NCBI GenBank assembly: GCA_948469885.1
Contig: CAOKMT010000006.1
Span: forward strand, 41,643-105,642
DNA length: 64,000 nt
Reading direction: 5' to 3'
Source of the DNA: an uncultured Sporosarcina sp.
GTDB lineage: Bacteria; Bacillota; Bacilli; Bacillales_A; Planococcaceae
Shown here: in pieces, positions 14,304 through 15,908 of the stretch
Layout: each line of letters opens with the position of its first letter
How positions within the stretch are numbered: the stretch's first letter is position 1
Translations under genes and position numbers: made by a program
The notes under the pieces: generated by a model
Seen by the model: the letters and a program-made list of their open reading frames with translations, nothing else
Told to the model about the DNA's origin: nothing
Database searches by the model: none

Positions 14304-15908
14304 ATGGCAAAGTATATTTTTGTAACAGGTGGTGTCGTTTCGTCACTTGGAAAAGGGATCACGGCTGCGTCACTCGGACGTTTGCTGAAAAACCGTGGAC
14401 TGCAAGTAACGATTCAAAAGTTCGACCCATACATTAACGTCGATCCTGGGACAATGAGTCCATATCAGCATGGGGAAGTATTTGTAACGCAAGACGGGGC
14501 AGAAACAGATTTGGATCTCGGTCACTATGAACGTTTTATCGATATCAATTTAAACAAATACTCCAACGTTACGATGGGGAAAGTATATTCTTCCGTACTA
14601 CAAAAAGAACGCCGCGGTGATTATAACGGCGCAACTGTACAAGTCATCCCGCATATTACGAACGAAATTAAAGAGCGTATTCTTCGTTCAGGGAAAGAGA
14701 TGAATGCAGATGTCGTTATTACGGAAATCGGAGGCAGTGTCGGAGACATTGAATCCCTTCCGATTCTTGAAGCGATCCGTCAAATGAAAACCGACCTACC
14801 TAAAAATGACGTCATGTATATCCACTGTACACTTATTCCATACATGAAAGCCGCTGGGGAAATGAAGACGAAACCGACCCAGCATAGCGTAAAGGAACTT
14901 CGTGGACTCGGAATTCAGCCAGATATAATCGTCGTCCGTTCGGAACAGCATGTGCCACAAGAAATGAAAGAAAAAATTGCGCTATTTTGTAGCGTTCGGG
15001 CAGAAGAAGTTATCGAAGCCGTGGACGCTGACACGCTTTACAAAATCCCACTTATGTTAAATGAACAAAAGATGGATGAAATTGTCGTTGACTTCCTCCG
15101 ACTTGAAGCGGGAGAGCCAGATATGAGCGAACTGAATGCGCTTGTTGAGCTTGTTGGAGCCGTTTCGAAAAAAGTGAAAATCGGTCTTGTCGGAAAGTAT
15201 GTGGAATTGCAAGATGCTTATATCTCAGCAGTCGAAGCACTCTCTCATGCAGGATATGGCTACGGGGCGGATATTGAAGTGAAGTGGATCGACTCGGAAA
15301 CGTTAACTGCACAAAATGCAGCTGAAGTTTTAGGCGATGTAGATGGCATTGTGGTCCCAGGCGGTTTCGGCGACCGTGGTGTCGATGGGAAGATCGAAGC
15401 GATTACGTATGCGCGTGAACAGAAAGTGCCATTTTTCGGAATTTCACTCGGTATGCAATTGGCAGTGGTCGAATATGCCCGTAACGTTGTTGGACTGAAA
15501 GATGCGCATTCGACGGAGTTTGATCAAGACACGAAGCATGCGATCGTCGACTTGCCAGCTGCTCAAGTCGATGTGGAGAACCTTGGCGGAACGATGCGTT
15601 TAGGCCTGTACCCTTGTAAGTTGAAAGAAGGGACGAAAGCGAAAGCTGCTTATGGAGAAGAGCTCGTGTATGAGCGCCATCGCCATCGTTATGAATTCAA
15701 TAATGGATACCGTGAACAGTTGGAAGAAGCGGGCATCGTGTTTTCCGGTATGAGCCCAGATGCACAGTTTGTGGAAATGATCGAGCTGGAAGACCATCCG
15801 TTTTTCCTCGGTTGTCAATTCCATCCTGAATTTGCTTCAAGACCAACACGTCCACAGCCGTTGTTTAAACAATTCATCGGTGCTGCGCTGGAAAGACAAG
15901 CGAAGTAA
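14304..15908 (+). CDS. pyrG: CTP synthase with Ser in place of the glutaminase Cys
   Basis: 534 residues, the normal length. The N-terminal synthetase domain is intact ([20 protein letters not shown]-loop), and the C-terminal class I amidotransferase domain keeps the oxyanion segment VPGGFGDRG and the His507/Glu509 pair in CQFHPEF. The nucleophile motif, normally GICLGMQ, reads GISLGMQ: codon 381 is TCA (15444-15446). Ser from Cys (TGC/TGT) needs two base changes, arguing against a single miscall. Cys is required for glutamine use in CTP synthase (E. coli Cys379), so the enzyme is predicted to take free ammonia for UTP to CTP. ATG 14304 follows ACGGAGGG. Expression is likely set by the leader attenuator. 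Confidence 0.95.

Follow-up and report, generated by a model that had tools for sequence, protein, structure and literature searches.

In biosynthesis, reduced nitrogen is carried almost universally by glutamine. Vertebrate carbamoyl-phosphate synthetase I (CPS I) has lost the cysteine of its glutamine amidotransferase (GATase) domain and depends on free ammonia (PMC7657897). Free ammonia is also the physiological donor of the single-domain NAD synthetase of bacteria, which has been proposed to be the ancestral form (PMC3376133). At the level of whole cells, Sporosarcina pasteurii has been described as having neither glutamine synthetase nor glutamate synthase activity, and a low-affinity GDH (Morsdorf and Kaltwasser 1989, cited in PMC7775470). 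The species requires ammonia, and some of its strains reportedly require glutamine, while strain DSM33 grew without it (PMC7775470). In TSB without urea, no growth was obtained once residual urea had been washed off (PMC6979283). Here, we describe pyrG, the CTP synthase gene of an uncultured Sporosarcina sp., in a window of 64,000 nucleotides (GenBank assembly GCA_948469885.1, contig CAOKMT010000006.1, positions 41,643 to 105,642 of the forward strand). We conclude that its product most likely makes CTP from ammonia only, and that the genus appears to have largely given up glutamine as a nitrogen donor.

The gene occupies positions 14304..15908 on the plus strand of the window, as do all the features given below, and its open reading frame encodes a protein of 534 aa that scores far above the cut-offs of the NCBIfam models PRK05380 and TIGR00337 (827.6 vs 462.75 for the latter, a whole-protein model). 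The neighbourhood presumably reads rpoE-pyrG-spo0F-fba, as it does for known PyrG. The synthetase (ammonia ligase) domain (aa 3-267, 14310..15104; Pfam PF06418, CTP_synth_N, 9.3e-130, 432 bits vs a cut-off of 26.1) has an unbroken P-loop, and a class I GATase domain follows (aa 302-525, 15207..15878; PF00117, 2.8e-42). The full two-domain architecture, the synthetase core and the His-Glu pair of the catalytic triad (His507-Pro-Glu509, 15822..15830, with His507 at 15822-15824 and Glu509 at 15828-15830) are shared with the glutamine-hydrolysing CTP synthases described by TIGR00337, but the Cys nucleophile is not. The elbow reads FFGISLGMQ instead of the GxCxGxQ that characterises these enzymes, and the site of the nucleophile, located in the sequence and by its alignment column, is occupied by Ser381, whose codon TCA (15444..15446) lies two changes away from TGT or TGC. 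The preliminary description had reported this serine next to an intact His507, Glu509 and synthetase P-loop, and the sequence bears it out on each point. With its nucleophile gone and its synthetase half kept, the protein has the pattern of a dead GATase attached to a retained synthetase. Because TIGR00337 still scores a Cys-less PyrG so highly, automatic annotation conceals the loss.

The loss is not peculiar to the window. The glutaminase Cys of PyrG is absent from all 68 genus genomes, i.e., from 67 aligned proteins and from the genus-like fragment of one further genome (G248), which has Ser and was excluded from the alignment. At position 381, the aligned proteins have Gly (33), Ser (31) or Ala (3), and nine codons are used in the genus (TCA, TCG, AGT, AGC, GGT, GGC, GGA, GGG and GCA). 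The named Sporosarcina records read Ser (JAI121) or Gly (S. cyprini and NCCP-2222). When PyrG from related Planococcaceae is aligned, this column separates the two groups completely, since Cys is present in 128/128 PyrG read outside the genus. In the latter set, 47 rows represent 16 of the 18 family genera that were sampled besides Sporosarcina, 4 come from the class and 77 are named records; L031 and the family genomes beyond these rows lie outside it. Since the window genome is a draft (3.59 Mb, 225 contigs, 88.5% complete), it might be suspected that a single codon was misread or misassembled. Such an error is refuted by the relatives, several of them single-contig genomes, that lack the Cys through nine codons, and its probability is negligible. 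Nor is there a sign of a second enzyme that could act as a backup. PyrG is present in all 68 genomes, with one match each in 67 of them, and none of them yielded a Cys-bearing copy; in the window genome, a profile search returned a single CTP_synth_N match, the sole PyrG found. A Cys-bearing second PyrG, against which the preliminary description had asked the genome to be checked, is thus rejected. G248 (75% complete) has two PyrG pieces, the second of which (L229, G248:C209:5853-7340) is 57% identical to the window PyrG, has a Gly elbow (GVGLGMQ) and possibly lies on a contig that is foreign to this genome and derives from a different lineage without the Cys.

A maximum likelihood tree computed with column 381 removed (quick search, SH-aLRT support only) places the 67 genus rows on one branch with support 100. 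On this tree, a single change, located on the genus stem, separates Cys from not-Cys, and seven changes occur among all states. Such interchange of Ser, Gly and Ala argues against a catalytic role of the serine. The two halves of the protein also differ in their conservation: within the genus, mean identity is 0.689 in the GATase half and 0.891 in the synthetase half, compared with 0.756 and 0.833 among 51 non-genus rows. As these comparison rows cover many genera, the relevant measure is how far the two halves have moved apart, and by this measure the glutaminase half of the genus PyrG is relaxed. It could be proposed that PyrG as a whole is decaying because CTP comes from cytidine or cytosine salvage, since the media commonly used to culture these bacteria are rich (PMC7775470). 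However, the conserved synthetase half and the presence of the gene in every genome lead us to reject salvage-driven decay, which is extremely improbable. The preliminary description had proposed that CTP is made from free NH3. This is the natural reading of a PyrG devoid of the Cys nucleophile in 68 genomes, accompanied by no Cys-bearing copy and conserved in its synthetase half, and it is supported at the level of sequence.

Most of the genus departs from the TIGR00337-type enzyme at two further places. G49 and T50 are found in 128/128 PyrG outside the genus and in 9/67 inside, most of the genus reading RM or TM. G428, G429 and T430, which belong to the LGGTMR motif that we take to be the lid over the GATase site, are likewise found in 128/128 outside, while inside the genus 5, 25 and 28 of the 67 proteins retain them, respectively, these columns (428-430) being less certain owing to alignment gaps. 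In fly CTPS, residues 50-58 contribute to the ammonia tunnel, at which a gap is covered by GTP, and NH3-dependent CTP synthesis is inhibited by the same nucleotide (PMC8325340). Given this location and these GTP effects, and with the numbering of aa 49-50 matched to the fly residues by ourselves, loosening there fits an enzyme fed with outside NH3. Unlike most of the genus, the window protein retains both the GT of aa 49-50 (14448..14453), directly before the loop that corresponds to the tunnel in the fly enzyme, and, as read from the alignment columns, the GGT of the lid (aa 428-430, 15585..15593). A change in the synthetase domain is seen at aa 145 (14736-14738), which is Ser in the GGSVGD of 67/67 genus PyrG and Thr in 128/128 others. 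Among the columns conserved outside the genus and changed inside it, a screen to which variable columns are invisible, none has turned to Cys, and a replacement Cys elsewhere in PyrG is rejected.

Beyond PyrG, urease and GlnA, the survey of enzymes used a panel of 18 of the 68 genus genomes, picked for completeness and PyrG variety and compared with 3 to 6 outgroup genomes. Absence calls rest on frame length and on thresholds, namely E <= 1e-9 for PF00117 in the panel (E <= 1e-3 for 5/18) and E <= 1e-6 for CarA, TrpE, PabB and GltD. Within the panel, it covered CarA, CarB, PurQ, GuaA, HisH, HisF, TrpG/PabA, TrpE, PabB, GltD, GlmS, NagB-like proteins and PurF. In CarA, the nucleophile is Gly in 14/14 panel proteins found (elbow GIGLGHQ or GIGMGHQ), and the His has become Tyr in three of them (G000, G005 and G060). 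CarA was not found in four panel genomes (G187, G242, G249 and G252). CarB is present in at least 15 of the 18, including G249, where carB directly follows pyrC with no carA between. In G187, G242 and G252, CarB is also absent among the matches listed, and de novo carbamoyl phosphate synthesis has possibly been lost. Unlike that of PyrG and GuaA, the GATase part of CarA shows no fast decay, being equally conserved in the genus and in the outgroups (0.750 in both). In PurQ, Gly replaces Cys and Leu replaces His in 17/18 genomes, which read GVGNGF(Q/H) and PLPER or PLPDR, compared with PHPER in outgroups G133 and G143; the only intact PurQ is that of G187. The CarA and PurQ of the window genome score above the NCBIfam cut-offs, so that here too automatic names conceal the losses.

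These substitutions bear on the possibility that Ser381 is an alternative nucleophile with which glutamine is still hydrolysed. Serine is a common amidase nucleophile, and His507 and Glu509 are kept in all 67 genus rows. Against this stand the Gly or Ala that other genus members have at the same position, the parallel change of Cys to Gly in CarA and PurQ, and the altered His in 3 CarA and 17 PurQ. We therefore reject serine as a substitute nucleophile, a highly improbable role. In GuaA, the Cys is lost in 14/18 panel genomes and a complete C-H-E triad remains in three (G005, G060 and G020), while G000 has kept the Cys and changed the His to Leu. The GATase part is shortened from 192 to 111-143 residues in 7/18, the SGGVDSS of the ATPPase part being kept, and the GuaA of G014 passes the NCBIfam cut-off on its ATPPase part. 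Within the genus, GuaA identity is 0.501 for GATase and 0.752 for ATPPase, compared with 0.769 and 0.885 in three outgroups.

Where the glutaminase is a separate subunit, it is mostly not found. At E <= 1e-9, there is no HisH-sized PF00117 match in any of the 18 panel genomes and no TrpG/PabA-like match in 17 of them, G236 being the sole exception; the outcome did not change for the five genomes searched at E <= 1e-3. All six outgroups have PF00117 matches of both sizes, and NCBIfam confirms the HisH of G133 and G143 and the PabA of G133. The synthase partners remain: HisF in at least 17/18 genomes (absent in G249 among the matches listed), a TrpE-type protein in 18/18 and a PabB-type protein in 17/18 (the exception being G187). 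HisF is 41-46% identical to the B. subtilis bait in the panel, 70-72% in G111 and G143, and 50% in the best listed match of G133. In the window genome, the operons read hisB-hisA-hisF, trpE-trpD-trpC-trpF-trpB-trpA and cysK-pabB-pabC-folP-folB-folK, each lacking precisely its glutaminase gene (hisH, trpG or pabA), and the corresponding locus of G133 (L274) reads cysK-pabB-pabA-pabC-folP, with pabA between pabB and pabC. HisF, HisB and PabC of the window genome score above the NCBIfam cut-offs; its TrpE and PabB find their best models among chorismate enzymes but fall below the cut-offs, so that their names come from the operon or the closest model. The remaining names in these operons are presumptive. 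A GltD-like protein at high identity is present in 1/18 panel genomes (G236) and in 3/3 outgroups. The TrpG/PabA-like gene of G236 (L276, G236:C1:4452000-4467000), the only one in the panel, has an intact elbow (GVCLGHQ) and adjoins a TrpE/PabB-like gene that belongs to neither the folate nor the trp operon. Together with its GltD, its two GlnA and an AsnB-like gene adjoining one of these, this gene makes G236 look as if glutamine use had been regained.

GlmS scores above the cut-off in 6/18 panel genomes and in 3/3 outgroups, and was not found in the other 12; its N-terminus is MCGIVGY in the five of six that were read. All 18 panel genomes have a NagB-like protein. That of the window genome (233.4 bits) and two others (220.6 and 220.8) are below the NagB cut-off of 236.9, and the motifs NLDEY and GHIAFNEPG are kept. 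Glutamine synthetase (PF00120) is matched in 40/68 genus genomes, at canonical strength in 37 and more weakly in three (G000, G078 and G239), canonical strength being our reading of the gap in PF00120 scores, with G000 (under) and G014 (over) as the only ones compared with the GlnA model. The match of G000 is nearest to gamma-glutamylputrescine synthetase and scores 341.9 vs a GlnA cut-off of 429.15. No canonical-strength GlnA match was found in 31/68 genomes, including that of the window, and PF00120 matches are absent even from single-contig genomes (e.g., G005, G017, G060, G105, G209 and G215). GlmS occurs in 6/8 panel genomes with a canonical-strength GlnA and in 0/10 without (Fisher p 0.0015), but with only 2 independent pairs this association is not significant after phylogeny. 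The distribution of glutamine synthetase also bears on whether a separate glutaminase, acting in trans, supplies NH3 to PyrG and the other synthases. Two-subunit amidotransferases exist, and the GATase fold that PyrG has kept could act as a docking shell. This arrangement is nevertheless very unlikely, as 31 genomes have no canonical-strength glutamine synthetase match and the panel itself is devoid of the known glutaminase subunits, HisH and TrpG/PabA, save for the one in G236.

It would be wrong to consider every amidotransferase dead, an idea we reject, since PurF, GatA, three GuaA, one PurQ and any GlmS that is present seem intact. The N-terminal Cys of PurF (EEC motif) is kept in 17/17 panel loci read (G242 being outside the count), and the Ser motifs of GatA, SSGGS with SDTGGS or TDTGGS, in 8/8 genus loci read; some glutamine use may thus remain. 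The PurF Cys may serve maturation or, alternatively, imported glutamine, and GatA can also accept asparagine. Among AsnB-like proteins, those of G005 (L318 and L338) read Asn (YKVNGFTGF) or Gly (MGGFVGG) in place of the class II N-terminal Cys, and those of G252 and G236 keep it. Among class I relatives for which glutamine is not a substrate, the Cys is retained in 11/11 loci read, namely AICHGPQ (4/4), GICRGxQ (6/6) and HICWGAQ (1/1), which from their motifs we take to be PfpI-like, PuuD-like and MetA-like, respectively. The loss therefore tracks glutamine use and is not a general loss of Cys.

The preliminary description had further suggested that the strong ureolysis and ammonium requirement of some Sporosarcina would make the loss of glutaminase tolerable. 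A UreC match is found in 53/68 genus genomes; however, urease is not a strict correlate, since all 68 lack the Cys, and with so loose an association urease is rejected as the cause. The remaining genomes must get NH3 elsewhere, e.g., from amino acid breakdown. The notion of a single-enzyme rewiring proves too narrow, since CarA, PurQ, GuaA, HisH, TrpG/PabA, GltD and GlmS are broken or not found in most of the panel, and the part of the genus in which GlnA has no canonical-strength match is further evidence against it. The Cys loss is strongly supported as a real sequence finding, and it is larger than first noted.

Altogether, the window PyrG is very probably a working CTP synthase that uses free NH3, not glutamine, as part of a genus-wide replacement of glutamine by NH3. 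In the corresponding model, whose timing for enzymes other than PyrG we infer, the PyrG Cys was lost on the genus stem. Across the panel, Gly stands in every CarA found and in almost every PurQ, HisH, TrpG/PabA and GltD are missing almost throughout, and the GuaA glutaminase domain, GlmS and GlnA would have decayed or vanished lineage by lineage. The synthase partners, which were mostly kept (the PyrG N-domain, CarB, GuaA ATPPase, HisF, TrpE and PabB, with PurL seen in the window genome), would be fed in vivo by NH3 at a high cytoplasmic level. In genomes without GlmS, the NagB-like enzyme, running in reverse, would probably make glucosamine-6-phosphate from fructose-6-phosphate and NH3. The genus-wide losses suggest free ammonia as the source for nucleotides, histidine, tryptophan, folate and cell wall sugar. 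It is likely, in a broader sense, that the nitrogen economy of Sporosarcina is glutamine-free or nearly so, with NH3 as the donor for CTP, carbamoyl phosphate, FGAM, GMP, histidine, anthranilate, aminodeoxychorismate, glutamate and, in most species, glucosamine-6-phosphate, and with near half of the species lacking the canonical GlnA route to glutamine; this would explain the classical ammonia requirement of the genus. Such use of NH3 agrees with the need for ammonia that has been published for S. pasteurii, a link that sets the physiology of one species beside losses in 68 genus genomes. The glutamine need reported for some S. pasteurii strains (PMC7775470) counts against a reading based on NH3 only. 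Also contrary to the model are the residues that the window PyrG retains (His507, Glu509, the GGT lid and aa 49-50), the undiminished conservation of the CarA GATase part, and the canonical-strength GlnA match in 37/68 genomes.

If correct, this model implies that, for eight or more biosynthetic steps, one genus has taken apart the glutaminase and kept the synthase, a natural experiment that bears on why channelled glutamine nitrogen is kept elsewhere. The ammonia requirement of S. pasteurii, which is widely used for biocement, would then have a molecular explanation, and naturally ammonia-dependent forms of CTP synthase, CPS, GMP synthetase, anthranilate synthase and HisF would become available. 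The literature covered, from which subscription papers are mostly missing, contained no account of these losses, which is weak evidence of novelty; the accessible part of PMC7872227 contains nothing on amidotransferases.

Both the gene losses and the physiology of S. pasteurii predict glutamine-poor, ammonium-dependent cells, and the accessible part of PMC7775470 does not mention amidotransferase loss. Free ammonia as a donor is shared with the ammonia-dependent NAD synthetase, but in Sporosarcina the loss of glutaminase would be secondary. The closest parallel is vertebrate CPS I, likewise a glutamine-dependent synthetase that has lost its GATase Cys and kept the dead domain, the Sporosarcina case being known from sequence. 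However, CPS I is one urea-cycle enzyme in animals, whereas in Sporosarcina many biosynthetic enzymes of one bacterial genus are affected at once.
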